A stretch of 64,000 nucleotides of DNA, taken from positions 185,001 through 249,000 of the forward strand of contig NZ_JAEQNE010000003.1 of NCBI RefSeq assembly GCF_016722785.1, in the 5' to 3' direction. The notes below the pieces were generated by a model. That model had not been told where the DNA came from. It saw only the letters and a program-made list of their open reading frames with translations, and made no database searches. Below are positions 30,225 to 46,529 of this stretch, piece by piece. How positions within the stretch are numbered: the stretch's first letter is position 1; every line of letters starts with the position of its first letter. Both the position numbers and the translations under genes were made by a program. Origin of the DNA: Ramlibacter monticola (GTDB lineage Bacteria > Pseudomonadota > Gammaproteobacteria > Burkholderiales > Burkholderiaceae_C).

Positions 30225-30265
30225 TCCACGCCCTCCGGCGCGCGGCATGCGCGCTCCCACTTCCG

Positions 30266-32113
30266 ATGGCCAATCGCGCACAGCCAGGCAGCAAGGGCGA
30301 GGTCTCACGCGGACCGGAGTCGCCCACGCGTGACGCGGACAGCGCCGGCCCCGCGGCGGATGCGCGGCAGCAGTTGGCCGACGCGATGCAGGGCCGACTC
30401 GGCAACCGGCGCCTGCAGCACCTGCTGGGTTCGGCGGCGCAAGCCGCGGCGCTGCCGGCGACCGCGGCGCGCGCGCTGGCGGAACCCGGCAGCGGTCTGC
30501 CGCCTGCGTTGCGGGAGGCGGCGGAGGGGCACTTCGCGGTCGACCTCGGCGCGGTGCGCGTCCACAAGGGCGGGGCCGCTGCGCAGGCCAGCCGCGCCCT
30601 CGAGGCGCGCGCCTTCGCGGTCGGCCGCGACATCGTCCTCGGCGACGCGGCCGCCGCCAGCGACCGCCGCTTGCTCGCGCACGAGATCGCCCACGTGCTG
30701 CAGCCGGCGGCGCCGGGCGGCGCGCCCGCCGTCGCGGCGCACGGCGACGCGGCCGAGCGCGAGGCCGACGCCGCCGCGGCGCACTTTGCCGCCGGCCATG
30801 CGCGAGCGCGGTCGCCGCTGCGCACGCGGCGCGTGGCGCATATCCAGCGCGACGCGCGGCATCCGACCGCCACCGTGTTCGACGCCGACTACCTGCTCTA
30901 CGCACTGGACGGCACCGACTACGACGCGGCGACGCAGCACTACTATCTCTCGCCCTGGGACCGCGCCCACCTGCGGCGGCGCCATGGGCTGTACGCGCTG
31001 GAAACCAGTTCCGGCGTGTCGCTGGTCACCCCACCCGAGGTGCGCCGCGCCGCCGGCGGGCACGGGGTGCTGGTGCGCCTCGGCGCGTCCGAGGTCGCGG
31101 CGTGGTTCGCGGCGGGGCGCGGCGGCGCGGCGCAATTCGCCATCGACCTCGCGCAGCGGCGGCTCCGCGAGACCGTGTCCTCGGTCACGCTGTCCAGCGG
31201 CGCCGACCAGGACTTCACGCGGCCGGAGTTGCCGGCCGGCGTCCGCCGCGGCCTCGCGTCGCCGCTGGAGGGCGTGCAGGCGGCCGAGGCTCCCGCGGTC
31301 GAGGCGGCGCGCACGCGGGCGGCCTCGGCCCCGCAGGAACGCACGCTGAGCCTCGCCGCCACGCGGGGCGAGGAACTGCCGCTGCGCGAGCTCACCTCGT
31401 CGGACCTCATGGACGTGAACACGCTGCCCGCCGACGACGCGGGGCTCGCTTCCTGGTACGTGGAGCGGCTTGCGACGCTGCAGGCGCAACTTGCCGAAAG
31501 CGCGGCCAGCCACCGCCTGCCGATGCAGTTGCTGGCCGCCGTGATCCTCAACGAGCTGGCCGACATCGGCCGCCTGGACGTGCTCCAGAGCGGGCCGGCC
31601 AGCTTCGGGGGCTCGCTGGGGATCGCGCAGATCCAGGTGGAAACGGCGCGCCGCGATGCGCTGGTCGACCTGCCGCCCGGGGCGCACCGCACCGGCTGGG
31701 CCCGATCGGGCTTGCACGCGCACGACATCGACGCCCCTTCGATGGTCGCCATGGGCGAGCGCCTGCGCATCGGCCAGTTGCTGCAGGTGCCGCAGGTGGC
31801 GATCGAGGCCGCGGCTCGGGAGGTCGAAATGCTCCTCACGCGCATGGCCGCCAACACCACGCGGCCGTGGCAGGTCACGCATGGCTTCACGGCGACCGGT
31901 CCGCAGGGCGACGCCATCTACGCGCGCGTCGGGGCGGGCAACCAGCAGGACCGCGAAGGCATGCTGGCGGACGCCGTGTGCGGCGCCTACAACTCGCCGG
32001 ACGTCATCACCGCCTCCGACACCTCGCGCTTCAGCAACGCGCGCATCCACGGCGGCAACGCCAACGTCCTCGCGCGGGACCTGTACCGCTTCCGCCTCTA
32101 CCGCAGTGTCTGA
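30266..32113 (+). CDS. DUF4157 (eCIS core domain) protein with C-terminal lysozyme-like domain
   Basis: This is a 615-residue candidate eCIS payload. Residues about 75-150 form the DUF4157 domain, with the metallopeptidase-like motif HEIAHVLQ at 139-146. This domain marks proteins associated with contractile injection systems and is thought to act in loading or processing. A middle domain (about 210-330) contains a DADYLLYALDGTDYD segment I cannot name. The C-terminal ~190 residues look lysozyme/transglycosylase-like: a candidate catalytic Glu in AAVILNELADI, then GSLGIAQIQ. It could be a muralytic effector or a wall-clearing enzyme for particle release. The start at ATG 30266 lies downstream of the sigma-54-like promoter. 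Confidence 0.75.
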   Translation: MANRAQPGSKGEVSRGPESPTRDADSAGPAADARQQLADAMQGRLGNRRLQHLLGSAAQAAALPATAARALAEPGSGLPPALREAAEGHFAVDLGAVRVHKGGAAAQASRALEARAFAVGRDIVLGDAAAASDRRLLAHEIAHVLQPAAPGGAPAVAAHGDAAEREADAAAAHFAAGHARARSPLRTRRVAHIQRDARHPTATVFDADYLLYALDGTDYDAATQHYYLSPWDRAHLRRRHGLYALETSSGVSLVTPPEVRRAAGGHGVLVRLGASEVAAWFAAGRGGAAQFAIDLAQRRLRETVSSVTLSSGADQDFTRPELPAGVRRGLASPLEGVQAAEAPAVEAARTRAASAPQERTLSLAATRGEELPLRELTSSDLMDVNTLPADDAGLASWYVERLATLQAQLAESAASHRLPMQLLAAVILNELADIGRLDVLQSGPASFGGSLGIAQIQVETARRDALVDLPPGAHRTGWARSGLHAHDIDAPSMVAMGERLRIGQLLQVPQVAIEAAAREVEMLLTRMAANTTRPWQVTHGFTATGPQGDAIYARVGAGNQQDREGMLADAVCGAYNSPDVITASDTSRFSNARIHGGNANVLARDLYRFRLYRSV

Positions 32114-32580: not shown

Positions 32581-33141
32581 ATGAGCGACTTCACCGCCAT
32601 CGCCGCCGTCACCAGCACGCTGAAGGCACTGCTGTTGCAGCAGCTACCGGCGATTGCCGTGGAGGAAACCAAGACGCCGCTCGAACTGGGCGGCAGCACG
32701 CCGATGGTGGGCCTGTACCTCTATCGCGCGGAGATGAACCCCTTCACGGCCAACATGGACTGGAGGCCGGTCACCGGGACGCAGCTCTCCGCGCCGCCGT
32801 TCGGGGTGAACCTGCACTACCTGATCACGCCCTACGGTCCGGACGAACTCGAGATCCAGCGCACCCTGGGGGAGGTGATGCGCGCCCTGCACGACCACGC
32901 GGTCGTGCGCAGCGGCGATCCGCTCCTCACGGCGCCGCTGGCCGACATGACGGAGGAACTGCGCATCGTGCCGCGCATGCTGCCGCTGGGCGACATGATC
33001 GACCTGTGGCGTTCGTTCGACAAGATGTCGTACCGCCTGAGCGTGACCTACGAGGTCTCCACCGTCCTGATCGACAGCGGCCTCACGCGCAACGTCGCGC
33101 GCGTGCAGGAACGCGTCATCGACCTGAGGCCCGCCCGATGA
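32581..33141 (+). CDS. DUF4255 family protein (Pvc16/Afp16-like terminal cap domain)
   Basis: This 186-residue protein has the standard DUF4255 pattern: an N-terminal TAIAAVTSTLKALL, then PMVGLYLYRAEMNPF, the hydrophobic LNLHYLITPYG-like strand (here VNLHYLITPYGPDELE), and a C-terminal LSVTYEVSTVLI. In Afp/PVC particles the homologous domain caps the end of tube and sheath. Its stop overlaps the next gene's ATG (ATGA), so it is coupled to the ATPase. It is one of the best markers that this locus is an eCIS. Confidence 0.9.
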   Translation: MSDFTAIAAVTSTLKALLLQQLPAIAVEETKTPLELGGSTPMVGLYLYRAEMNPFTANMDWRPVTGTQLSAPPFGVNLHYLITPYGPDELEIQRTLGEVMRALHDHAVVRSGDPLLTAPLADMTEELRIVPRMLPLGDMIDLWRSFDKMSYRLSVTYEVSTVLIDSGLTRNVARVQERVIDLRPAR

Positions 33142-35387
33142 CCGCCGCGGCCCGCCATGCCCCGCACCCGGCCCGCACCCGCGCCCCGCGCGCGGCGCCG
33201 ATGCCGGCCACCTCTGCGTCCGTGCCATGGACCGACGTCCTGGTGGCGGAGGTCGATCGCCGCATCGCCGAACAGGTGGGCCGCTGGCGCGGCGAGCAGG
33301 CCGCCCCTACCGCGCTGAAGAGCCTGGTCATCACCGACGCCGAGGTCGACGAGCTGATGGCGCGCGCCAGCGAGCCTCCCGAGCCGGCGCTGCCCTGCGG
33401 CAGCCTGGCCGCGCAGGTGATCGACGCCGGCGCGCCGCGCGTGCTCGCGCTGCAGGCAGCGTTCGAGCTGTCGCCGTTCGAGCTCGACGCGGTGCTGCTG
33501 TGCCTGGCCAGCGAGCTCGATTGCCGTTTCGACCGGCTGTGGGCCTACCTGAACGACGACCTCACCCGCACGCGCCCGTCGGCCGACCTGCTGCTGCGGC
33601 TGCTGGCCCCGCCGCACGAACGCGTGTTCCTCCAGGGGCAACTCGCGAGCGACGCGCCGCTGCTGCAATGCGCCCTGCTGCTGGCCGACGATTCCAGCCG
33701 CCGCGGCGGCAATCCCCTGTACCGCGTCGCCGACGGCGTGCTGCGCCACCTGCTGGAACGCGGCGGCGTCGATGCGGCGATAGCCGATGCCGTGTGGGAC
33801 GACGACGTCGCCCCGCTCGCGCCGACGCTGTGGCGCGCCCGCCCGCAAGTGCAGGAGGTCCATGCCCTGCTGGCCGCGCAGGAGGGCGCATCGACGCCCT
33901 TGCTGGTCAACCTGCACGGCCGCGACGGCAGCGGCCGTGCCTTCGTTGCGCACGCCGCGTGCGGCCGCCTGCAACGGCGCTGCCTGTCGCTGGATGGCCG
34001 CAAGCTCAAACGCGGCGCCGACAGCCGCGCGGCGTGGCTGGCCGCGCTGCGCGACGCGCGGCTCGGCGGCGACCTGCTCTTCGTCCACCACGCCGACGCC
34101 GGTTTCGACGACGCCGAGCGCCGCCACGAATGGCGCACGCTGCTGCAGTCCTGGCTGCGCCGGTTCGGCGGCACAGTGCTGCTGGCCTCGGCCGAGGCCT
34201 TGCCCCTGGCGGCCTGGTTCCCCGCAGCCGACGTGGCCCACGTCGCCTTGCCGAACCTCGACATGGGCGAGCGCGAAGCCGCCTGGCGCGGCGTGCTGGC
34301 CGCCGTCTGCCCGCTGCCCGAAGGCGCGCGCGAATCGCTCGCGCACTCGCTGGCCGCCAAGTTCCGCCTGACCGAAGGCGAGATCGCCGTCGCCGCGCAG
34401 CAGGCGCGCACCGCGGCCCGCGGCATGGCCGACGAAGCGGGCTGGACCGCCGTGCTGCACGAAGTGGTCGCGCGCGTGGCCGCGCCGCGCCTGCACGAAC
34501 TCGCCGAGGCCGTGCCGGTGCGCCATTCGCTCGCCGACATCGTTCTGCCGCCCGACCGGCTCGAGGTGCTGAAGGACCTGGTGCGCCGCACGCAGCACCG
34601 CCGCACCGTGCTCGAGGACTGGCGCTTCGACGACGTCTCCGCGCGCGGCCGTGGCCTGGTGGCCCTCTTCCACGGCGCCTCGGGCACCGGCAAGACGATG
34701 GCGGCCGAAGGCATCGCCAGCACGCTGCGCATGCGCCTGTTCCGCATCGACCTGGCCGGCGTGGTGAGCAAGTACATCGGCGAAACCGAGAAGAACCTGC
34801 GCACGATCTTCGACGAGGCCGACCGCGCCGATGCGGTGCTGTTCTTCGACGAAGCCGATGCGCTCTTCGGCAAGCGCTCCGAGGTGAAGGACGCGCACGA
34901 CCGCTACGCCAACATCGAGATCAACTACCTGCTGCAGCGCATCGAGCTGTTCGACGGCATCGCGATCCTGGCGACCAACAAGCACAGCCACATGGACGAG
35001 GCGTTCATGCGCCGCATCCACGTGAGCCTGGAGTTCCCGCTGCCTCGCCCGCCCGAGCGGCTGCGCCTGTGGGACCGCAGCTTCCCGCGGGTCGCGCCGA
35101 TGGCCGGGGACATCGACTGGGACTTCCTCGCCCAGCGCTTCGAACTGAGCGGCGGCGCGATCCGCAACGCCGCGCTCGGCGCCGCCTATCTCGCGGCCGA
35201 GGGCGGTGACGCCATCGGCATGAAGCACGTCGTCAACGCGCTGCGCACCGAACTCGTGAAGGCGGGCCGCCGCATGCAGGACGGCGAGTTCGCGCCCCAC
35301 GCGCATCTTCTCACCCAGCCGGCCGCCGCGGCCCGCACCCACGCCGGCGCGCCATCCCCGCGGCGCCCCGGCCGACCGGAGGAATGA
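33138..35387 (+). CDS. AAA+ ATPase of the eCIS (Pvc15/Afp15-like)
   Basis: This is a 749-residue protein. After a basic, disordered N terminus (about 1-30), a helical region extends to about 470. The AAA+ module follows, with Walker A GASGTGKT at 513-520, Walker B LFFDEAD around Asp571-Glu572, a sensor-1 Asn in ILATNK, and an MRRIHVSLEF segment carrying the arginine finger. Such ATPases are conserved in eCIS loci and are linked to assembly or to loading and release of cargo. The ATG at 33138 is inside the DUF4255 stop; a longer in-frame reading back to 32415 lies across the upstream genes. Confidence 0.92.
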   Translation: MTAAARHAPHPARTRAPRAAPMPATSASVPWTDVLVAEVDRRIAEQVGRWRGEQAAPTALKSLVITDAEVDELMARASEPPEPALPCGSLAAQVIDAGAPRVLALQAAFELSPFELDAVLLCLASELDCRFDRLWAYLNDDLTRTRPSADLLLRLLAPPHERVFLQGQLASDAPLLQCALLLADDSSRRGGNPLYRVADGVLRHLLERGGVDAAIADAVWDDDVAPLAPTLWRARPQVQEVHALLAAQEGASTPLLVNLHGRDGSGRAFVAHAACGRLQRRCLSLDGRKLKRGADSRAAWLAALRDARLGGDLLFVHHADAGFDDAERRHEWRTLLQSWLRRFGGTVLLASAEALPLAAWFPAADVAHVALPNLDMGEREAAWRGVLAAVCPLPEGARESLAHSLAAKFRLTEGEIAVAAQQARTAARGMADEAGWTAVLHEVVARVAAPRLHELAEAVPVRHSLADIVLPPDRLEVLKDLVRRTQHRRTVLEDWRFDDVSARGRGLVALFHGASGTGKTMAAEGIASTLRMRLFRIDLAGVVSKYIGETEKNLRTIFDEADRADAVLFFDEADALFGKRSEVKDAHDRYANIEINYLLQRIELFDGIAILATNKHSHMDEAFMRRIHVSLEFPLPRPPERLRLWDRSFPRVAPMAGDIDWDFLAQRFELSGGAIRNAALGAAYLAAEGGDAIGMKHVVNALRTELVKAGRRMQDGEFAPHAHLLTQPAAAARTHAGAPSPRRPGRPEE

Positions 35388-35757: not shown

Positions 35758-38415
35758 ATGGCAGAGTACCTTCACCCCGGCGTGTACGTCGAAGAGAAGT
35801 CCAGCGGCGTGCGTCCGATCGAAGGCGTCAGCACGTCGACCGCCGGCTTCGTCGGCGTCACCGCCAAGGGGGTGCCGAACAAGGCCACGTTCATCACGAG
35901 CTGGCGCGCCTTCGTCACCAAGTTCGGCGACGTCTCGCGCGACGGCCCCTACCTGCCGTACGCGGTGGAGCAGTTCTTCGCCAACGGCGGCAAGCGCTGC
36001 TACGTCGTGCGGGCGCTGTCCGACGCGTCGTCGCGGCAGGCCGGCGTCGACCTGCCCTCGCGCGAGACCGCGGGGGCCCCGCGCAACACGCTGCGCGTCA
36101 GCGCCAGGGGCAAGGGCGGCTGGGGCAACGGCCTCAGCGTGCTGGTCGAGGACGGCACCGCGGCGCCGCTGGCCGGGTTCCGCCTCGTGGTGCTGATGGA
36201 AGGCGTGCCGGTGGAGGTGTTCGACGACCTGTCGATGGACGGGAATGCCAGCAACTACGTCGAGACCGAGATCAACGACGCCTCCGAATACATCGAGGTC
36301 GAGGACCTGCGCGCCGCCACGCCCCTGGACGGGGGCGCCGCGATCCCGGCCACGGCGGTCAGCAACGTCGCGCTGGCCGCACCCGTCGCCCTGGTGGCCG
36401 GCGACACGCTGACGCTCGCCGTGCCCGACGGCACGACCGTGCCCCCCATCCAGCTTGGCAGCCTGGTGGCGCCCGTGACGCCGCAGATGATCGTCGACGC
36501 GATCAACACCGCGTGGAGCCCGTTCAACCTGACGGCCTTCCTCACCCCGGCCGACGACCCGGCCGGTGCCGGCCGCATCCGCGTCAACCACAACACCGCC
36601 GGCTACGACAGCTACTTCGTCATCGGCGGCGGTGCCGTCGCCGCGGGCCGCCCGCTGCTCGGCATGACCGGCTTCCACCAGGGCAAGGGTGCGGCGATCG
36701 GGGCCACGCTGAAGAGCGATGCCGCGGCGACCTTCAACATCCCCGCCGGTCCGAACAACGTGCTCACGCTCACGGTGCACGGGGACGTGTTGCCCAACGT
36801 CACGCTGAGTCCGGGCGCGGCGGTGCCCATCGAGACCGTGCTGGCCGACCTCAGCGCGGGCCTGGCCACCGTGGCCCACGGCCTGGTGGTGGCCCGCCGC
36901 GAAGGCGATCGCATCGTGGTCAGCACGACCAACCTGGGTGCGGCGGACAGCCGGCTGCTGATCGCCGGCGGCGCGGCCGCGGCACTCAACTTCCGCCAGC
37001 TCGATGGCACCGCGCAACCCGCGGGCGGCGTCGACGGCTTCGGCCGGTCCGAGCCGGCCTTCGTGCAGAGCGACGTCGGCCCCTTCACGGTGGAAGAGGA
37101 CGCGACGCTCGAGTTCGTCACCAACAACGGCGCTGCCGGCGCCGAGGCGAACGAGGTGGTGGTGGAGTTCACGACCGGCGCGGCCTTCCAGAACCTGCAG
37201 CAGGTCACCGCCAAGGAACTCAGCGACGCGATCAATGCCGCCGCGGCCGCCACGGTGCCGGCCGGCCAGGTCACCGCCAGCGTCGTCAACAACCGCGTGC
37301 TGGTGCGCCAGTCGCGCCGCGGCAGCCAGTACTGGCTGGAAGTGCGCGACGGCCTCCTGAGCCCGAACGTGCGGCTGAAGTTCGACACGCCCCGCCGCAG
37401 CGGCTTCGAAGACGGCGACCCCGCGTCGCCCTACTTCCGCCCGGCGTTCAACCCCGTGGCCAACGCCAACGAGCCCCGCCCCCTCACCGGCGGCGACGAC
37501 GGCAGCCCCGTGTCGAACTTCGAACTCGTGGGCACCGCCGACCGGAAGACCGGCCTGCATGCCTTCGACGACGTCGGCGACGTGAACTTCTTCGCCATTC
37601 CCGGCGCGAGCGACCCGGCGGTCGTGAGCGCGGCCATCGGCTACTGCGGCATCCGGCAGGACTGCTTCTACATCGCCGACACGCCGGGCAAGCGCGATCG
37701 CAACACGCCCGTCACCGAACCGGTGCATGCACAGAACTTCATGCGCAACAAGGTGAGTCCCAAGAACAGCTACGGCGCGCTGTACTACCCCTGGCTGCAG
37801 ATCGCCGACCGCGCCGGCGCGGGCAAGAATCCCCGGCGCTACGTGCCGCCGTCGGGCTTCATCGCCGGCCTCTACGCGCGCATCGACAACCAGCGCGGCG
37901 TGTGGAAGGCCCCGGCCGGCACCGAAACGGGCCTGATCGGCCCCATCGGCCTCGAATACGCGGTGACCGACGCCGAGCAGGACATCCTCAACCCGATCGG
38001 CGTCAACTGCATCCGCCAGTTCGCGGACTCCGGCATCGTGGTCTGGGGTGCCCGCACCTTCGCCGCGCAGTCCGACCCCGAGTACCGCTACGTGCCGGTG
38101 CGCCGCTACACGATCTACCTGCGCCAGAGCATCTACCGCGGCACGCAGTGGGCCGTGTTCGAGCCGAACGACAAGCCGCTGTGGGACCAGCTCAAGGCCA
38201 ACATCGACGACTTCCTGATGGGCGAGTTCCGCAAGGGCGCGCTCGCCGGCGCCACGCCCGACGAGGCCTTCAGCGTGAAGTGCGACGCCGAACTGAACCC
38301 GCCGTCGGAGGTGAACGCCGGCCGCGTGAACATGGAGATCGCGTTCGCCCCGCTGAAGCCGGCGGAGTTCGTGATCATCCGCATCAGCCAGAAGTCGCAG
38401 CGGCCGCAGGGCTGA
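35758..38415 (+). CDS. Contractile tail sheath protein with large three-repeat insertion
   Basis: This is an 885-residue sheath. The N-terminal YLHPGVYVEEKSSGVRPIEGVSTSTAGFVG and the C-terminal subtilisin-like-fold domain (about 630-885, including YVPVRRYTIYLRQSIYRGTQWAVFEPN) are typical of eCIS/T4-type sheaths, which are often 350-550 residues. The excess lies between about 200 and 550. It appears to contain three ~90-100-residue repeats (about 205-305, 325-420, 435-545), each with a strand, a helix ending in DAINxA/ADLSAG/DAINAA, and a VxVxxxxxG strand. These probably decorate the outside of the particle. CAGGAG precedes the ATG. Confidence 0.93.
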   Translation: MAEYLHPGVYVEEKSSGVRPIEGVSTSTAGFVGVTAKGVPNKATFITSWRAFVTKFGDVSRDGPYLPYAVEQFFANGGKRCYVVRALSDASSRQAGVDLPSRETAGAPRNTLRVSARGKGGWGNGLSVLVEDGTAAPLAGFRLVVLMEGVPVEVFDDLSMDGNASNYVETEINDASEYIEVEDLRAATPLDGGAAIPATAVSNVALAAPVALVAGDTLTLAVPDGTTVPPIQLGSLVAPVTPQMIVDAINTAWSPFNLTAFLTPADDPAGAGRIRVNHNTAGYDSYFVIGGGAVAAGRPLLGMTGFHQGKGAAIGATLKSDAAATFNIPAGPNNVLTLTVHGDVLPNVTLSPGAAVPIETVLADLSAGLATVAHGLVVARREGDRIVVSTTNLGAADSRLLIAGGAAAALNFRQLDGTAQPAGGVDGFGRSEPAFVQSDVGPFTVEEDATLEFVTNNGAAGAEANEVVVEFTTGAAFQNLQQVTAKELSDAINAAAAATVPAGQVTASVVNNRVLVRQSRRGSQYWLEVRDGLLSPNVRLKFDTPRRSGFEDGDPASPYFRPAFNPVANANEPRPLTGGDDGSPVSNFELVGTADRKTGLHAFDDVGDVNFFAIPGASDPAVVSAAIGYCGIRQDCFYIADTPGKRDRNTPVTEPVHAQNFMRNKVSPKNSYGALYYPWLQIADRAGAGKNPRRYVPPSGFIAGLYARIDNQRGVWKAPAGTETGLIGPIGLEYAVTDAEQDILNPIGVNCIRQFADSGIVVWGARTFAAQSDPEYRYVPVRRYTIYLRQSIYRGTQWAVFEPNDKPLWDQLKANIDDFLMGEFRKGALAGATPDEAFSVKCDAELNPPSEVNAGRVNMEIAFAPLKPAEFVIIRISQKSQRPQG

Positions 38416-38446: not shown

Positions 38447-38932
38447 ATGGCCCCGCGCACTTCGCAGTTCGACCCGTACCGCACCTTCAAATTCCGGGTG
38501 CGGCTGGACGGCAAGGTCATCGCCGGCATCCAGAAGGTGTCGGCGCTGGGGCGCAGCGTCGCACCCAACGAGGTCAAGGAAGCCGGCGATGCGTTCGGTC
38601 CGCGCCACATGCCCGGCATGCTGAGCTTCGACGACGTCACGCTGGAACAGGGCTGGAGCGCCGACGCGACCCTCGAAGCCTGGGCCAACGAGGTGCTGAA
38701 GCTGCACTCCGACCCGGCCGGGTCCAGCAACTTCAAGCGCACCGTGTTCATCGACGCGTTCGACCTCGCCGGCATGCCTGCGAACCTGGGCGCGGCATCG
38801 CCGGTGCAGAGCTACAAGCTGCACGCCGCGTGGGTCATGAAGTACGTCGCCGTGCCCGAACTCGATGCGGAAAGCGGCGGCATCGGCATCCGCAGCGTGA
38901 CGCTGCGCCACGAGGGGTGGGAACGGGTCTAG
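38447..38932 (+). CDS. Tail tube protein 1 (T4 gp19-like)
   Basis: This 161-residue protein is of the gp19/Pvc1-Pvc5 family. Landmarks are the start TSQFDPYRTFKFRVRLDGKVIAGIQKVSAL, the LEQGWSADATLEAWANEV stretch after SFDDVT, and the end SVTLRHEGWERV. Tube proteins stack as hexameric rings inside the sheath. It is clearly paralogous to the next gene (same N and C termini) but diverged in the middle, as in particles with a main tube and a baseplate-adapting tube. Confidence 0.92.
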   Translation: MAPRTSQFDPYRTFKFRVRLDGKVIAGIQKVSALGRSVAPNEVKEAGDAFGPRHMPGMLSFDDVTLEQGWSADATLEAWANEVLKLHSDPAGSSNFKRTVFIDAFDLAGMPANLGAASPVQSYKLHAAWVMKYVAVPELDAESGGIGIRSVTLRHEGWERV

Positions 38933-38978: not shown

Positions 38979-39458
38979 ATGGTCGCCCGCACTTCGCAGT
39001 TCGATCCCTTCCGCGGCTACAAATTCCGTGTCCGGTTCAACAACCAGGTGGTCGCCGGCCTGACCAAGTGTTCGGCGCTGACGGTCAGCATCGAATCCAA
39101 GGAGTTCCGCACCGGCGACATGGACGGCTTCAAGCAGAAGCTGCCCGGCATGGTGTCGTTCGAGGCCATCACGCTGGAGCAGGGCATCACCACCGACAAG
39201 ACCTTCGAGGCCTGGGCCACGTCGATGGCCAACTACGTCGGCAACAAGGGGGCCGATTCGCAGAAGACGCCCGACGACTTCCGCAAGGAAATCGACATCG
39301 AGATCTACAACCTGAACAACGAGAAGGTGAAGGCCTATCGCGTCTACCAGTGCTGGGTCTCGAAGTACACCGCGCTGCCGGCGCTCGATGCCGCCTCCGC
39401 CGACGTGATGATCCAGACGATCGTGCTCGAGAACGAGGGCTTCCAGGTCCTGCAGTAA
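38979..39458 (+). CDS. Tail tube protein 2 (T4 gp19-like)
   Basis: This is a 159-residue tube paralogue. The N-terminal ARTSQFDPFRGYKFRVRFNNQVVAGLTKCSAL and C-terminal IQTIVLENEGFQVLQ match the gp19 family. The central LEQGITTDKTFEAWA corresponds to the same position in the preceding protein. It resembles the more usual major tube protein by its EFRTGD and FRKEIDIEIYN segments. It is preceded by a good Shine-Dalgarno (AAGGAG). Which paralogue forms the main tube is inferred, not shown. Confidence 0.92.
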   Translation: MVARTSQFDPFRGYKFRVRFNNQVVAGLTKCSALTVSIESKEFRTGDMDGFKQKLPGMVSFEAITLEQGITTDKTFEAWATSMANYVGNKGADSQKTPDDFRKEIDIEIYNLNNEKVKAYRVYQCWVSKYTALPALDAASADVMIQTIVLENEGFQVLQ

Positions 39459-39477: not shown

Positions 39478-40415
39478 ATGGGCATGATGGAATCGCTCCC
39501 GACCCCCGGCCACGCTGCCTCCGGCGTGGCGGGTGAGTCCCTCGCCGAGCGCTGGCTGGTGCTGCCCGGGGGCGTGTTCGGCGCGCAGGGCACGCTGCAT
39601 CGGAGGGTGCGGGTGCGCGAGCTGACCGGCGCCGACGAGGAGCGCCTGTTCGACCGCGGCAGCCTGGCCTCCGGCCGGCGCGTGAGCGCCTTCCTCGCCT
39701 GCGCGATCGATGCGGTGGAGGGGCACGACGGCCCCATCGACGAGGCGTTCGCCGACGGCCTGCAACTGGGCGACCGCGACTACCTGCTGCTGCGCCTGCG
39801 CCAGCTCGATCTGGGCGATGCGGTGCACCAGGTGATGCGCTGCCCGGCGTGCCGGCAGAAGGTCGATGTCGACTTCCTGATCAGCGAACTGCCGGTTCGT
39901 CGCCTGTCCGAGCCGCAACGGGCGTGGGCCCTGCGCCTGGATGCGGGCCCGGAGCCGCTCGAAGTCCTCGTTCGGCTGCCGCGCGGTGACGACCTGGCGG
40001 CGATCGAGGCGCTGGCGCTGTCCAACCCCGCGGCCGCGAACACGCGCCTGTTCGCCCGGCTGGTGCTGGACGTCGAGGGCCGGGGCGCGCCCACCGAGGA
40101 CGAAGTGCGCGGCTGGCCCGTGGCCCGGCGCGCGCAGCTGTCGGCGTGGCTCGAAGCGCACGCCCCCGGCCCGGACCTGTTCCTCGACCTGGACTGCCCG
40201 CACTGCCACGCGGACATGAGCTACGTGTTCGACCTGCAAGGTTTTTTTTTGCCGAGCGCTCGGGGGACCTCGCCCGCCTCTACGAGGAGGTCCACGTGAT
40301 CGCGCTGCACTACCACTGGTCGGAGGCCGCCATCCTCGGCCTGCCGCGGCGCAAGCGGCTGCGCTACCTGCAGCTGCTGGCCGAGCACGTGCAACCCTCT
40401 TCCCGGGACATGTGA
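39478..40415 (+). CDS. gp26-like protein with -1 frameshift extension by a GpE/DUF6760-like domain
   Basis: The zero frame (39478-40299) encodes a 273-residue T4 gp26-like protein. It has two zinc-ribbon CxxC pairs, at MRCPACRQ and DCPHCHAD, the second just before the shift. At 40242-40251 the run T9G gives T TTT TTG in the zero frame. A -1 shift replaces the last 15 residues with 54 residues ending at 40415, including LARLYEEVHVIALHYHWSEA and a basic RRKRLRYLQLL helix. That is the recognisable DUF6760/phage GpE pattern, which elsewhere is a separate small gene. The -1 frame ends one base before the next gene's GTG, as expected if it is translated. The full -1 product is about 312 residues. 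Confidence 0.8.
40242..40251 (+). promoter_or_regulatory. -1 ribosomal frameshift (slippery) site, T9G
   Basis: TTTTTTTTTG contains, in the zero frame, both T TTT TTT and T TTT TTG heptamers. It is by far the longest A/T homopolymer I noticed in this GC-rich window and would normally be avoided in coding sequence. A shift of -1 here joins the two halves of the gp26-like/GpE-like gene. RNA polymerase slippage on the T run (adding one U) would give the same product. Confidence 0.72.
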
Positions 40416-40416
40416 C

Positions 40417-41580
40417 GTGAGCAACGCGCCCGCCACCCAGGAAGCCCTCGCGCTGTCGCGCCGCGGCCTGCCGTTGCCGCGCGCGGAAGCCGCCTTGCCG
40501 CGCGCGCCATGGTGGCCGGCGATGCTGCGCAGCCGCGCCGCGGCGGCGGGGACCCTGCCCGAGGCCAGGCCCGAGGTTGCCGAGGACGCCAGCGTCCTCG
40601 ACGCCCCGGCCGTCGAGGAAGGCGAAAGCAACTCGTGGCGCGACGAGGCGTTTGCACTGTCCTATCCCCATCGGGCCCGGCCGGCTGCGCAAGCGGCAGG
40701 CGAGGCGCCGTCTTTCCGCACGGCTGCGGCAGGCCCGTTGCCCCGCTCCGCTTCAACGCCGAGCGCGGCTAACGGGTCGGCCGCGCCGCGGCCGATGGCT
40801 AAGGCGGCTACGGACCCGGAAGGGCCGCCGCAGCAGCCTGCACGCATCGAGCGCCTTGCCGCGGCCGCGGAACCAATGGGCGTTCCGCACACCGCGACGA
40901 CAGGGGCGAACCCACTCGCAGTCCCACGCGCCGCGTCTGCCGCATCTGCCATCGCGCCGTCCCCGGCCGCCGCGCCCGTGCCTGCCGCTGCCGTGTCGCC
41001 GCGCAGTGGGGTCGTGCCGCCGGCCGAACGCTTGCCGCGCCCCGTGCTGGCATCGCTGCCGTTCACGCCGCCCACTTTGGCTCCAGCGCCCGTGCCGGTC
41101 GCAGCGGCCGCTGAATCCGAGCGCCCATCGTTTCCGCCCCACCACGAGGCCACACCGGCGCCGTCGGCCATGGTGCGCGCTTCCCTCCGCACGACAGGCG
41201 CCGCGCCGCGCATCGCGTCCGTCACTTCGCGCGCCACGGGATGGCCCGCCGCGGCGGCCCCGCCGCTCGTGATGCTTCCACCCACCGCCATGGGGTGGCC
41301 ACAAGTCCCGGACGAAGAGCGCCCGACGAGCGCGCCGCCCAGCGCCACCTCGCCCGCGCTCACCGAGGCTGAGCGCCAGGCCTTGCTGGCACCGCCACGC
41401 GCCGAGCCGCGGGGTGTGCACATCGGCCAGGTGCACGTCACCGTGCAGGCGCCGGCCACCGCGTCGCGCGGCCCCGCCGTCGTGGCACCTGCGCCGCAGT
41501 CGGCCGCACCCGCCGCGCAGGCATTGCAGCCCGCGCCCTTTCGCAACCCCTGGGCTGGCGCGTATCGCCGCCGCGACTGA
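40417..41580 (+). CDS. Ala/Pro-rich low-complexity eCIS protein, possible tape-measure or linker
   Basis: This is a 387-residue protein starting at a GTG one base after the -1-frame stop. Residues 1-80 have some order (ALSRRGLPLPRAEAALPRAPWW; WRDEAFALSYPHRARP). About 80-330 is Ala/Pro/Ser-rich and probably disordered. The C terminus has a conserved-looking strand, PRGVHIGQVHVTVQAP, then an Ala/Pro stretch ending in NPWAGAYRRRD. By gene order (tube, chaperone-like gene, this, then hub genes) it occupies the place of a phage tape measure, but it lacks the long helices of known ones. Function unknown. Confidence 0.55.
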   Translation: MSNAPATQEALALSRRGLPLPRAEAALPRAPWWPAMLRSRAAAAGTLPEARPEVAEDASVLDAPAVEEGESNSWRDEAFALSYPHRARPAAQAAGEAPSFRTAAAGPLPRSASTPSAANGSAAPRPMAKAATDPEGPPQQPARIERLAAAAEPMGVPHTATTGANPLAVPRAASAASAIAPSPAAAPVPAAAVSPRSGVVPPAERLPRPVLASLPFTPPTLAPAPVPVAAAAESERPSFPPHHEATPAPSAMVRASLRTTGAAPRIASVTSRATGWPAAAAPPLVMLPPTAMGWPQVPDEERPTSAPPSATSPALTEAERQALLAPPRAEPRGVHIGQVHVTVQAPATASRGPAVVAPAPQSAAPAAQALQPAPFRNPWAGAYRRRD

Positions 41581-42402: not shown

Positions 42403-43065
42403 ATGTCCGACTTCATCCAACGCCCCAAGCTGTTGCGCGGCGCCTTCGTCGAATACGGACTGTCGCTGCCGCCGCTGCTGTTCGCGTTCCAGTTCAACCC
42501 CGAGACGCTCACCCGCAGCCGCACCGCCAGCTACACCGCGGGCGGCGCCGACGGCAGCGGCGAAGGCTGCCGCGACGGCAACGAGGCGCAGCAGCGGGCG
42601 TGCATGTCGCAGGTGCAGGTCAGCGAGGAAAGCATCGGCCTCACGCTGCAGCTCGACGCGACGGAGGCCCTGAACGACGGCGAGGGACTGGCCGGCCAGT
42701 TCGGCATCGGCCCGCAGCTGTCGGTGCTGGAGCTGATGATCTATCCGAAGACCGACCAGCTGTTCGGCTTCCCGATCGGCAACCTGCTGGGCGCCAGCGA
42801 CCAGTTCGGCGCCGCGCAGGCCAAGACCATTCCCATCCTGCTGTTCGTCTGGGGGCGCAAGCGCGTGATGCCGGTGGTGATGACGAGCCTGACGATCACC
42901 GAGCAGGAGTACTTCCCCGACCTGAACCCCAAGCGCGCGACCGTCGCAGTGCAGCTGAAGGTGCTCGAAGGCTTCAACCCGCCGTACCTGTATTCGCATG
43001 GCTGGCGCACGGCGCTGGCGGCGATGAACCTCGGCAACATCGGAGGATTCCTCAATGTTCTTTGA
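42403..43065 (+). CDS. CIS tube N-terminal domain protein (Pvc7/Afp7-like, without LysM)
   Basis: This is a 220-residue protein. The start (LLRGAFVEYGLSLPPLLFAFQFNPETLTRSR) and the end (ILLFVWGRKRVMPVVMTSLTITEQEYFPDLNPKRATVAVQLKVLEGF) match the contractile-injection-system tube-initiation domain that links the hub to the tube. In Pvc7/Afp7 this domain is followed in the same protein by LysM; here LysM is a separate gene overlapping by 11 bases. The middle contains a short cysteine-containing loop (GEGCRDGNEAQQRACM). Confidence 0.85.
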   Translation: MSDFIQRPKLLRGAFVEYGLSLPPLLFAFQFNPETLTRSRTASYTAGGADGSGEGCRDGNEAQQRACMSQVQVSEESIGLTLQLDATEALNDGEGLAGQFGIGPQLSVLELMIYPKTDQLFGFPIGNLLGASDQFGAAQAKTIPILLFVWGRKRVMPVVMTSLTITEQEYFPDLNPKRATVAVQLKVLEGFNPPYLYSHGWRTALAAMNLGNIGGFLNVL

Positions 43066-43339
43066 CGGCTCCCGCTACGAACGCGTGCCCGACGCGGCGT
43101 TCACCGACGGCCAGGGCCGCCCGGTCACCCTCAAGCGCACGCGCGAACCCGTGGCCACCGAGCTCGCGCTGGTCTACACGGTGCGCGAGGGCGACCGGCT
43201 CGACCAGCTCGCGAACAAGTTCTTCCACGACCCGCGCAAGTGGTGGCTGATCGCCGACGCCAACCCCGACGTGCTGGCGCCCGACCAGCTGCTGGTGCCG
43301 GGCCGCACGCTGCGCATCCCGAAGGACCGCCGCGCGTAA
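43055..43339 (+). CDS. LysM domain baseplate protein (tail protein X / gp53-like)
   Basis: This is a 94-residue protein with one LysM-type fold: YTVREGDRLDQLANKFFHDPRKWWLIADANPDVLAPDQLLVPGRTLRIP, the usual pattern in baseplate proteins related to gpX and T4 gp53. The first 30 residues include FDGSRYERVPDAAFTD. It overlaps the preceding CIS-tube gene by 11 bases, consistent with a split of the fused Pvc7 architecture. It probably sits at the top of the hub. Confidence 0.9.
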   Translation: MFFDGSRYERVPDAAFTDGQGRPVTLKRTREPVATELALVYTVREGDRLDQLANKFFHDPRKWWLIADANPDVLAPDQLLVPGRTLRIPKDRRA

Positions 43340-43360: not shown

Positions 43361-44572
43361 ATGCCCGCCCTGCCCACCGCTTCCGACCGCTCCTTCAGCT
43401 GCATCGTGCGCGTCAACGGCGAGGCATCGACGTCGCTGCTGCAGTGCATCCAGTCGGTCACGGTGGAGGAAGACCTGGACGTGGGCTCCTCGTGCGGCAT
43501 CCAGCTGCAGGCCTGCCGCCGCGAGGACGGCAGCTGGCCCTACCTGGAGGACGAGAACCTCCAGGTGTGGAACCGCGTGACCGTGTACGCCGCGTTCCCG
43601 AAGCAGACCGAGGTGGTGTTCGACGGCTACATCTCTCACGTCGACGCCCAGACCCAGCCGGAAGCCGGATCGATGACGGTGGACATCCGCGGCGTCGACG
43701 CCTCGTACCACATGAACCAGGAGGAGAAGGCGCGCATCTGGCGGGGCAAGACCTACGAGACCATCGTCGGCGAGATCTTCGCCGAGTACCAGTTCACGCC
43801 CTTCATCGGCGAGGCGCCCGCCGGCGTGGACCCGCCGCTGCAGGTGGCGCAGCGCGCGACCGACCACCGCTTCGTGCGCGACCTGGCGCGGCGCCGCGGC
43901 TACGAGTTCTACGTGCTGGGCGCCAATGCGTACTTCCGCCCGCCGCAGCTCGATGGCCAGCCGCAGAAGCTGATCGCCGTGAACTTCGGCGAGCAGAGCA
44001 ACTGCTCGCAGATCCGGTTCTCGGCCGACGGCACCGCGCCCACGCGCGCGCAGGTGAGCTACTTCGACGCGATGGAAGGCGTGGCGGCCGGCGAGACCGT
44101 CGAAGAGTCCGACCTGCCGGCGCTCGGCACCACCCGGCTGTCCTCGCTGCGCGGCGCCGTCGGGATGCCGCAGGCCACCAGCATCGCGCGCGGCCTGGGC
44201 ATCCACGGCCCGGCACAGGCGGCCGGCTATGCGGCCGGGGTCCTGCGCCGCAACGGCTGGTGGGTCGCGGCGCGGGGCACGCTCAACGGCCTGCGCTACG
44301 GCGCGGTGCTGCGCTCGCGCAAGACCGTGACGGTCAAGGGGGCGGGTGCGCAATACAACGGCAACTACTACGTGCGCAAGGTGCAGCACCGGCTCACGCA
44401 GCGGACCTACGAGATGCAGTTCGAGTTGATGCGCAACGCGGTCGGCCGGCTCGGCACCGAGCCCTTCGAAGGCGAATCGCCCGAATCGACCGTCCCCGCC
44501 GCCGTGGGTGCCGGCATGGATGCCGACGCGATCGAGGTCAGCGACCGCGGGCCGCGCGTGCTGCCTGCCTGA
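43361..44572 (+). CDS. Baseplate hub protein (phage late control D / gp27-like)
   Basis: This is a 403-residue protein related to gpD and the N-terminal hub of VgrG/Pvc8. It contains VWNRVTVYAAFPKQTEVVFDGYISHVDAQTQPEAGSMTVDIRGVDAS, the KTYETIVGEIFAEY helix, and ATDHRFVRDLARRRGYEFYV. It forms the trimeric hub on which the spike sits. The hub and spike are separate genes here, as in phages rather than fused as in VgrG. Confidence 0.9.
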   Translation: MPALPTASDRSFSCIVRVNGEASTSLLQCIQSVTVEEDLDVGSSCGIQLQACRREDGSWPYLEDENLQVWNRVTVYAAFPKQTEVVFDGYISHVDAQTQPEAGSMTVDIRGVDASYHMNQEEKARIWRGKTYETIVGEIFAEYQFTPFIGEAPAGVDPPLQVAQRATDHRFVRDLARRRGYEFYVLGANAYFRPPQLDGQPQKLIAVNFGEQSNCSQIRFSADGTAPTRAQVSYFDAMEGVAAGETVEESDLPALGTTRLSSLRGAVGMPQATSIARGLGIHGPAQAAGYAAGVLRRNGWWVAARGTLNGLRYGAVLRSRKTVTVKGAGAQYNGNYYVRKVQHRLTQRTYEMQFELMRNAVGRLGTEPFEGESPESTVPAAVGAGMDADAIEVSDRGPRVLPA

Positions 44573-44585
44573 ACCAGGAAAGAGG

Positions 44586-45494
44586 ATGTCGATGGACGCT
44601 GAACAAACCCTCTCCTCCGCAGCCGACAGCGAACGGGTGCAGCGGCTCGAAAGCCAGTACTTCGGCAAGTACCGCGGCGTGGTGATCGACAACCTCGACC
44701 CGCTCATGCTCGGCCGCCTGCGCGTGTGGGTGCCCAGCCTCTTCCCCACCGAAGACAACGCGCAGCCCGATACCGAGAGCCCGAGCGTGAGCGACTGGGC
44801 GTGGCCTTGCCTGCCCTTCGGCGGCGCGCCCGACCAGGGCTGGTTCTTCGTGCCCGAGATCGGCAGCAAGGTCTGGGTCGAGTACGAGGAGGGCAACCTC
44901 GACAGCCCGCTGTGGGTCGGCGTGTTCTGGTCGGCCCCCGGCGGCACGACCGAGATTCCGGCCGAGGCGCAGGAGATGGAAGCCGGCGACCCGAAGCGGC
45001 GCGTGCTCAAGACTTCGTCCGGCCACGTGCTGGAGTTCTGCGACGTCGACGGCAAGGAGACGATCACCTTGCGCCACAAGGACGGCGCGGTGCTGACCTT
45101 CGACGAGAAGGGCAGCGTCACGATCGGCAACAAGGAGGGCAGCTTCGTCTACCTGAATGCCGACCAGGGCGAGCTGTCGGTGGCCGACCAGGGCGGCAAC
45201 AACCTGCGCATGGGCGAGTCCAACGTGACCCTGACCAACAAGGACGGCACGGTGGTCGACCTCGCCGGCTCCGCGGTGCAGATCGTCGCCAAGAACGTGA
45301 TGCTGCGCTCCGACACCGTGGCGCTGGGCGAAGGCGCGATGGAGCCGGCGATCCTGGGCCGGGCGTTCGCGGCGATCTTCGATGCGCACACGCATCCGAC
45401 CGCGTTCGGCCCGTCCGGGCCGCCGATCCCGGTGCCGATGCCGCTGTCCTCGCCCATGCATCCGGCGATCTCCAAGTCCGTCACGGTGAAATGA
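44586..45494 (+). CDS. Baseplate spike protein (gpV/gp5-like, OB-fold plus beta-helix)
   Basis: This is a 302-residue spike. The N-terminal OB-fold part contains YRGVVIDNLDPLMLGRLRVWVPS, then DQGWFFVPEIGSKVWVEYEEGN, the gp5/VgrG core. The C-terminal part, about 155-260, has short repeats typical of the trimeric beta-helix: TITLRHKDGAVLTFDEKGSVTIGNK and NVTLTNKDGTVVDL. The protein closes with AHTHPTAFGPSGPP, the 'HTH' region where a PAAR-like tip usually docks. The start could be the ATG at 44586 or 44592. Confidence 0.9.
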   Translation: MSMDAEQTLSSAADSERVQRLESQYFGKYRGVVIDNLDPLMLGRLRVWVPSLFPTEDNAQPDTESPSVSDWAWPCLPFGGAPDQGWFFVPEIGSKVWVEYEEGNLDSPLWVGVFWSAPGGTTEIPAEAQEMEAGDPKRRVLKTSSGHVLEFCDVDGKETITLRHKDGAVLTFDEKGSVTIGNKEGSFVYLNADQGELSVADQGGNNLRMGESNVTLTNKDGTVVDLAGSAVQIVAKNVMLRSDTVALGEGAMEPAILGRAFAAIFDAHTHPTAFGPSGPPIPVPMPLSSPMHPAISKSVTVK

Positions 45495-45501
45495 ATGCGC
45501 C

Positions 45502-45837
45502 ATGAGCTGCGTCTGCAAGATCCCGTCGCTGCCGCTGCCGCAGCTGACGATTCCGCTGCCGATCCCGGCGTTGCCGGCGCTGCCCTCCCTGCCTGCGCTG
45601 CCCGCCCTGCCGGGCCTGCCCAGGCTGCCGTCGCTGCCCCTGCCGGCGCTGGTGATCCCGCTGCCGATCCCGTCCCTGCCGGCGTTGCCGTCCTTGCCTG
45701 CGCTGCCCGCCCTGCCGGCCCTGCCCAGGTTGCCGTCGTTGCCGCTGCCGGCGCTGGTGATCCCGCTGCCGATCCCGTCGCTGCCGGCGCTGCCGTCCTT
45801 GCCCGCGCTGCCGGCCCTGCCGCCGTGCCCGTGCTGA
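45502..45837 (+). CDS. Leu-Pro repeat protein at the spike-tip position
   Basis: This 111-residue protein is made almost entirely of Leu, Pro, Ala, Ser and Ile. Three 35-residue repeats (about 4-38, 39-73, 74-108) share the core LPSLPLPALVIPLPIPSLPA. Cysteines occur only at the ends (MSCVCK at the start, PPCPC at the end). It starts 7 bases after the spike gene, a place where eCIS loci often encode the PAAR tip protein. There is no signal peptide or membrane helix. It could be an extended polyproline-type or beta-helical tip, or a plug. I know of no experimentally described family with this exact form. Confidence 0.7.
   Translation: MSCVCKIPSLPLPQLTIPLPIPALPALPSLPALPALPGLPRLPSLPLPALVIPLPIPSLPALPSLPALPALPALPRLPSLPLPALVIPLPIPSLPALPSLPALPALPPCPC
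45511..45825 (+). repeat. Three in-frame tandem repeats of 105 bp
   Basis: Three copies with a period of exactly 105 bases start at about 45511, 45616 and 45721. The last two are nearly identical except for synonymous third-position changes; the first is more diverged. The period is a multiple of three, so copy-number change would lengthen or shorten the Leu-Pro protein in steps of 35 residues. Confidence 0.85.
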
Positions 45838-45853
45838 ATCGGGGAGTCACCAC

Positions 45854-46129
45854 GTGTTGAAGCCCGGAACCCTCCTCGGCGAGCTCCTGGAGCCCGCCAC
45901 GATGGCGCACGAAATCGAGCTCGCGATGATCGAGCAGGGCCTTCTCGTGCTCGACGACGAGACCCCCGAAGCCGCCGAGAACCGGCGCCGGAGCTTCATC
46001 GCCATTTCCACCGGGGTGATCGTGCACCTCAAGGCTGCCCTCGAGATCACGATCGCCGCCAACCGGATCAACGCGAGCCAGCCGCCCTCGGCGGTGAAGA
46101 TCCTCGGCGCGGCCGGCGAGATCGCGTGA
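45854..46129 (+). CDS. eCIS-associated hypothetical protein, 91 residues
   Basis: This is a small helical protein starting at a GTG (45854). Sequence features are PGTLLGELLEPATMAHEIELAMIEQ, a short acidic turn LDDETPEAAENRRR, and an amphipathic C-terminal part with GVIVHLKAALEITIAANRINASQPPSAVKI. It lies between the Leu-Pro protein and gp25, inside the baseplate block. No family was recognised. An in-frame ATG at 45902 is a shorter alternative start. Confidence 0.6.
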   Translation: MLKPGTLLGELLEPATMAHEIELAMIEQGLLVLDDETPEAAENRRRSFIAISTGVIVHLKAALEITIAANRINASQPPSAVKILGAAGEIA

Positions 46130-46139
46130 AGGGCCGAAG

Positions 46140-46529
46140 ATGACCGACGAACGCTACCTCGCCTTCCCCTTCCGGCTGACGCCGGCCGGCGGCACCGCGA
46201 GCACCGACCTGGACGGCGCCATCCGTGGCCGCATCGAACAGCTGCTGTTCACCGCGCCGGGCGAGCGGGTGATGCTGCCGGCCTTCGGCTGCGGTGCGCG
46301 CGACCTGGTGTTCCAGGGCAACAACGAGGTGCTGGCCGCCGCCACCGAGTTCACGATCGCGAAGGCCCTGCAGGCCTTCCTCGGCCACCTGGTGATGGTG
46401 CATGGCGTGCACGTCCAGCACGAGGAGGAAACGCTGCGCGTGGAGGTGGTCTATACCCGCAGCCGCGACCTGGAGCGCGAGCGCGTGGTCTACCAGCTGC
46501 TGCCGCAGGAGGGGGCCAACCGTGGCTGA
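46140..46529 (+). CDS. gp25-family baseplate wedge protein (GPW/gp25)
   Basis: This is a 129-residue protein typical of the gp25/gpW family: YLAFPFRLTPAGGTASTD near the N terminus, RIEQLLFTAPGERVMLPAFGCGARDLVF in the middle, and LRVEVVYTRSRDLERERVVY at the end. The EPR-like turn is degenerate (FTAPGERVMLPAFG). It joins the sheath to the baseplate. Its 3' end overlaps the next gene by 8 bases. Confidence 0.93.
   Translation: MTDERYLAFPFRLTPAGGTASTDLDGAIRGRIEQLLFTAPGERVMLPAFGCGARDLVFQGNNEVLAAATEFTIAKALQAFLGHLVMVHGVHVQHEEETLRVEVVYTRSRDLERERVVYQLLPQEGANRG

Follow-up and report, generated by a model that had tools for sequence, protein, structure and literature searches.

Does the gene at 39478-40415 (+ strand) of a 64-kb stretch of Ramlibacter monticola DNA (the whole analysed stretch, hereafter the window) encode one protein, or two that share an N-terminus? 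The gene belongs to an extracellular contractile injection system (eCIS), and a T9G run late in its sequence separates a gp26-like reading frame from a DUF6760-like one. We attribute it, with a probability of about 0.78, to a tail assembly chaperone of the eCIS with a short form and a slip-derived long form, the ratio of which sets assembly. Standard decoding would yield the short gp26-like chaperone, in which two chaperone-like domains probably follow each other. Part of the expression would slip on T9G, either through a -1 shift of the ribosome on T TTT TTG or through RNA polymerase on T9, giving a long form of ~312 aa that carries the DUF6760/E'-like domain. By analogy to lambda G/GT and P2 E/E+E', the short form would hold a hub or tape-measure-like component and the long form would recruit tube subunits, assembly being set by the short/long ratio. 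We infer that both forms are produced, in a certain ratio, and that they function as chaperones.

The sequence of the site, its conservation, its frames and the family resemblances of the products were directly observed. T9 spans 40242-40250 on the + strand and is followed by G at 40251. The zero-frame open reading frame (ORF, 39478-40299, + strand) encodes the short form of 273 aa and terminates with TGA at 40297-40299. Over the run it reads GGT TTT TTT TTG CCG, which places the heptamer T TTT TTG in frame and follows the X XXY YYZ pattern of programmed -1 ribosomal frameshifting; T9 also has the length associated with transcriptional slippage (at least nine T or A on the coding strand). In the -1 frame, FFF is followed by 54 residues including LYEEVHVIALHYHWSEA. 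This extension (54 codons plus stop, 40251-40415, + strand) ends at 40413-40415, one base ahead of the GTG of the next gene at 40417. Both the run with its zero-frame heptamer and the 54-residue continuation up to the next start codon had been put forward in the initial annotation; coordinates and translation bear out the former, the sequence the latter. T9 occurs once in the window, both strands counted (0.00 expected from 100 shuffles), and among the 5403 codon steps scanned in 15 eCIS ORFs an in-frame T TTT TT[AG] was found a single time, at the slip site. Across the 6.1-Mb genome, 15 T9 matches correspond to 14 runs, including that of the slip site. The zero frame matches PF12322 (T4_baseplate, gp26/gp51) with E 1.3e-7 and 31.9 bits, above the cut-off of 24.5, while the -1 frame matches PF20546 (DUF6760) with E 5.7e-5 and 23.5 bits, under the cut-off of 27. 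The proposed name gp26-like can accordingly be retained as it stands, and DUF6760-like as a resemblance below the threshold. In NCBIfam, neither the gp26-like half nor the extension was matched.

Two close homologues were found, one on an IMG/VR contig (L009, 64% identity to the window protein) and one in a Burkholderiales metagenome-assembled genome (L026, 51%). Both carry the exact T9G, with the zero-frame stop located 5 and 6 codons past the last TTT, respectively, and a short form plus a C-terminal extension in another frame over the slip site is present in 3/3 T9G loci. The alignment of relatives called for by the initial annotation thus shows T9G, both frames and the frame order to be kept in the two closest homologues found. 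On the 5' side of the run, 151/239 zero-frame residues are identical between the window and L009. Over the 42 codons on the 3' side, identity in the -1 frame is 31/42 for window and L009, 24/42 for window and L026, and 27/42 for the third pair, as compared to 15-27/41 in the other two frames. The contrast is small for window and L009 (31/42 against 25 and 27/41) and clearer with L026. T9 and the eight bases after it do not vary among the three loci; an identical stretch of at least 17 was obtained in 46 of 10000 column shuffles, and a second, coding stretch of equal length is present. Moreover, the codon that opens the run (GGT/GCT/GCT) is the only one of 232 with a third-position T in all three, which indicates that the length of nine is conserved beyond the heptamer. 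When viral contigs were scanned for the slip-site pattern, nothing was returned besides the contig of L009 and an unrelated match (L088).

These data bear on two trivial origins of the split. Homopolymers are error-prone and the frame is uninterrupted in more distant relatives, as expected from a sequencing or assembly error or from recent gene decay. Still, the -1-frame residues 3' of the run are conserved above the other frames, and as T9G and both frames are common to three independent records, error and decay were rejected as exceedingly unlikely. Homopolymer runs also mutate readily, and DNA slippage in a run that is rare in the genome could toggle the long form among cells. Such phase variation appears very unlikely: exactly nine T are found in 3/3 loci from separate organisms or samples, albeit three are few, and other clades carry fixed short slip-like sites (see below).

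For a wider comparison, 59 distinct loci with both domains were retained after removal of duplicates and incomplete loci. P0001, alignment A1 and P0005 served as queries in the similarity searches that gathered them, and the proportions given here should therefore not be read as population frequencies. In the seed profiles the fused, T9G and +1 classes were represented, but the T TTT TTA class was not. Genome searches matched 8/197, 18/369, 5/296, 10/300 and 24/199 genomes, the centre genome being counted each time; a first contig scan with P0001 alone and a plasmid search gave no relative. Four identical places came up both among the same-order kin of the window and in the order of a Burkholderiales metagenome-assembled genome, which makes Burkholderiales the probable order of the window. 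Eleven rows duplicated others and were dropped; L065, one of these, is counted under L032. L007 and L018 were dropped for a gp26 match without a DUF6760 match, the match in L018 lying at most 15 bases from a contig end, and L008, L024, L025, L043 and L088 had no gp26 match.

The two domains share a single frame in 44 loci, while the extension lies in the -1 frame in 6 and in the +1 frame in 9. Relatives with an uninterrupted frame had been named in the initial annotation as evidence against a programmed shift. They exist in number (44/59), all outside the T9G clade, and imply that the fusion protein is real; recoding inside the T9G clade is not refuted thereby. Of the six -1 loci, three carry T9G and three carry AAT TTT TTA (L041, L068 and L069), two of the latter being near-copies. 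All nine +1 loci place TTT C 3-4 codons ahead of the stop. With two further slip-like sites, T TTT TTA and TTT C, at the gp26/DUF6760 junction in actinobacteria, the arrangement is not unique to this eCIS, which corrects the initial annotation. On an unrooted tree each slip type forms one supported clade (99/95, 100/100 and 100/99), and the remainder are fusions. UUU C is described as the P-site +1 slip tetranucleotide of influenza PA-X (PMC3498833). TTT is uncommon in the +1 loci, making up 31/483 Phe codons in the ORFs of the seven loci L028-L034, a count that possibly includes the slip site itself; in L026 TTT is not rare (25/108 Phe codons). The slip site of L041, L068 and L069 uses TTA, and the scanned ORFs of these loci contain one TTA among 90, 64 and 79 Leu codons, respectively. 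In S. coelicolor, TTA is reported to be read only by the bldA tRNA, which is required for some development (PMC2000904); a developmental link of the chaperone ratio is therefore conceivable in the three loci with this slip site.

Two observations weigh against a chaperone made in two forms. Firstly, most relatives were found only as fusions, so that the short form is either not required everywhere or made otherwise. Secondly, each T9G locus contains a candidate internal start: GTG 40296 in the window with GAGGAGG just upstream, ATG 3109 in L009 with GGAG upstream, and an ATG overlapping TGA in L026. Together with the start codons at or past the stop in the +1 loci L030, L032 and L040, these suggest that DUF6760 might be translated on its own, through internal or coupled initiation, T9 being incidental. 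However, the candidate starts are not homologous, that of the window falls within the conserved domain, and the conservation of T9G would be left unexplained. L066 lacks ATG, GTG and TTG in the extension frame as far as 60 bases beyond the stop, the start codons of the other +1 loci are found at scattered places, and the fusion prevails elsewhere. As the open frame of the extension starts ahead of the gp26 stop in 15/15 split loci, i.e. the open frames overlap, a separate gene is disfavoured and regarded as improbable.

Recoding of one gene into a short and a long chaperone may proceed by ribosomal or by polymerase slippage. A stimulatory RNA structure downstream of the run, for which the initial annotation had proposed a folding check, did not materialise. 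Three 89-nt folds gave z 0.86, -0.65 and 0.98 relative to shuffles, and a 44-nt fold of the window gave z -0.86. Such structures are described as dispensable in some tailed phages (PMC5009743). If slippage of RNA polymerase on T9 were specifically responsible for the recoding, the long form would be translated from transcripts of altered run length without any slip of the ribosome, in line with the conserved run length and the lack of a structure near the run. Across 108 bacterial genomes, a large share is reported to show selection against A/T runs at a length of nine (PMC1088944), and transcriptional slippage is described for genes of type III secretion (PMC5009743). Conversely, a -1 translational shift is annotated in P2, where the equivalent run is T6, and the run of the T TTT TTA clade is likewise no longer than T6. 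In addition, the heptamer is correctly framed for the ribosome, and the length argument is based on three sequences only. Polymerase slippage as the specific mechanism is given slightly less than an even chance. The two mechanisms are judged nearly equally likely on T9G and could act together; the length conserved beyond the heptamer and the missing RNA structure make us lean towards RNA polymerase. As the runs are short in the clades with T TTT TTA and TTT C, the ribosome is the more likely agent of the slip there.

The chaperone assignment draws tentative support from PHROG matches, predicted folds and synteny. phrog_508 (tail assembly chaperone) is matched by L009 (E 1.7e-6), L027 (9.8e-6) and L026 (4.6e-4), and more weakly by L028 (0.0052), L030 (0.03) and the window (0.3); L034 has no listed match. 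phrog_150 (baseplate hub) outscores phrog_508 in each of those loci. Among predicted structures, the HK97 chaperone is the first row from the Protein Data Bank (PDB) for the window model and the second for the L027 model. A Foldseek search of the L027 model against PDB gave nothing at E <= 0.001. YqbN was not among the rows listed in a second PDB look with the window model, and a PDB sequence search with A2 returned one row at chance level. As to synteny, the slip gene is located directly 3' of two tube genes and is followed by a gene of no family. Overall, the description as a phage-style assembly chaperone in the initial annotation is supported, with corrections.

The extension domain was compared with DUF6760 and with P2 E'. 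DUF6760 is matched by 8/17 eCIS extensions, and PF06528 (P2 GpE) was not among the matches of 17 DUF6760 members (E up to 10 in both cases). A PHROG search of the 17 eCIS extensions assigned two to P2 E' families and one to phrog_634. The extension of L029 matches phrog_6416 (2.9e-4) and phrog_1756 (2.1e-3), as does P2 E' (2.5e-20 and 2e-29, respectively). The DUF6760 of L041 matches phrog_634, the other family of gp51, with E 9e-7; the window's own extension has no PHROG match. Alignment of the 17 eCIS extensions with 8 P2 E'-type domains by hhalign gave a probability of 79.8 over 34 columns, W on W. A PF06528 scan of 61 genomes returned two matches, neither in the genome of the window, and both loci were set aside.

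The eCIS setting of the locus, as initially annotated, is confirmed by the neighbouring genes identified with Pfam, all on the + strand. Upstream lie an eCIS_core protein (30263-32113, PF13699 E 6.1e-20, start provisional), a Pvc16-like protein (32581-33141, PF14065 E 2.5e-33), an AAA ATPase (33141-35387, PF00004 E 3.9e-30, start provisional) and a sheath protein of 885 aa (35758-38415, PF04984 and PF17482). The recognised domains of the sheath protein begin at residue 595, preceded by a long N-terminal part. Two tube-like proteins follow (38447-38932, PF06841 E 1.5e-26; 38979-39458, PF06841 E 6.1e-33), the second directly 5' of the gp26-like ORF. Adjoining the slip gene on the 3' side, a Pro/Ala-rich protein of 387 aa (40417-41580) was matched by neither Pfam nor NCBIfam within the limits applied. 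Its gene occupies the place of a phage tape measure gene, and L009 and L026 have a start codon at the same place as 40417. In Streptomyces, the gene that follows a +1-frame DUF6760 (L028:6843-10040) encodes a protein of 1065 aa that contains NlpC/P60 and SLT domains and also matches tape measure PHROGs. The cluster continues with a CIS_tube family protein (42403-43065, PF19266 E 1.1e-6), a LysM protein (43055-43339, PF01476 E 5.2e-6), a GPD-like baseplate hub (43361-44572, PF05954 E 2.6e-9), a spike/OB-domain protein (44508-45494, PF04717 E 1.1e-14) and a gp25-like baseplate wedge protein (46140-46529, PF04965 E 1.2e-14). Two frames overlap at 45495-45860, one being an LPALPSLPALP-type repeat protein without Pfam match.

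On a broader scale, the gp26-family pair of short and long chaperones might be an old shared part of contractile machines, kept as two genes in T4 and recoded at one junction in three eCIS clades with three slip sites (-1 T9G, -1 T TTT TTA and +1 TTT C), possibly of separate origins. The decoding-set ratio would control assembly, and recoding would form a hidden, unannotated layer of eCIS; we consider this proposal evenly balanced. No paper on recoding in the eCIS gp26/DUF6760 gene was among the matches listed in open-licence PMC, and gp26/gp51 as chaperones, and eCIS, may already be treated in existing literature. Structure-based descriptions easily overlook assembly factors that do not stay in the finished particle, and a shifted-frame product escapes annotation as well. 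If true, an assembly chaperone of eCIS could be named, its ratio would be open to test, and it would be tied to T4 gp26/gp51 and P2 E/E+E', and the need to keep a short overlapping frame intact for a working cluster would be explained. Injection machines and tailed phages would share a construction principle.

Among known systems, the lambda slip site differs from the T9G of eCIS. Lambda G/GT is described as a short form and a shifted long form made in a set ratio, the short form binding the tape measure protein and the long form connecting it to tube subunits (PMC5009743). Tailed phages are reported to shift by -1, -2 or +1 (PMC5009743), a pattern that the varied direction among the eCIS clades fits. 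Nine-base slippage runs inside coding regions are described for Thermus dnaX and for Shigella mxiE, the longer product of which requires the slip (PMC1088944); both proteins are unrelated to the gp26-like one. In T4, gp26 and gp51 both belong to PF12322, as does the eCIS zero frame, and cover positions 14-235 and 13-280 of the 282 in phrog_150, i.e. a short and a long form. By eye, the additional C-terminus of gp51 resembles DUF6760. Direct hhalign of the eCIS profiles against the single T4 sequences was weak, and the T4 pair consists of two genes on opposite strands, as opposed to one putatively recoded gene in eCIS. A T4 review describes both as hub assembly chaperones, gp51 being absent from the finished particle, and also cites work locating gp26 to the hub (PMC3004832). 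P2 E/E+E' (AF063097) differs in that E has 91 aa rather than the 273 aa of the gp26-like protein, the run is T6 instead of T9, and a tape measure gene follows where the eCIS neighbour has no family; PF06528 was not matched in eCIS. Still, both systems have the order sheath, tube, chaperone, and T TTT TTG is the site of the -1 shift, annotated in P2 and predicted in the window. The P2 site is given correctly in the initial annotation, as the annotated shift sits on GGT TTT TTG (GGT TTT TTT TTG in the window). Past the slip, the window reads FFFAE and P2 FFVAE, and in both the extension carries an HW motif.
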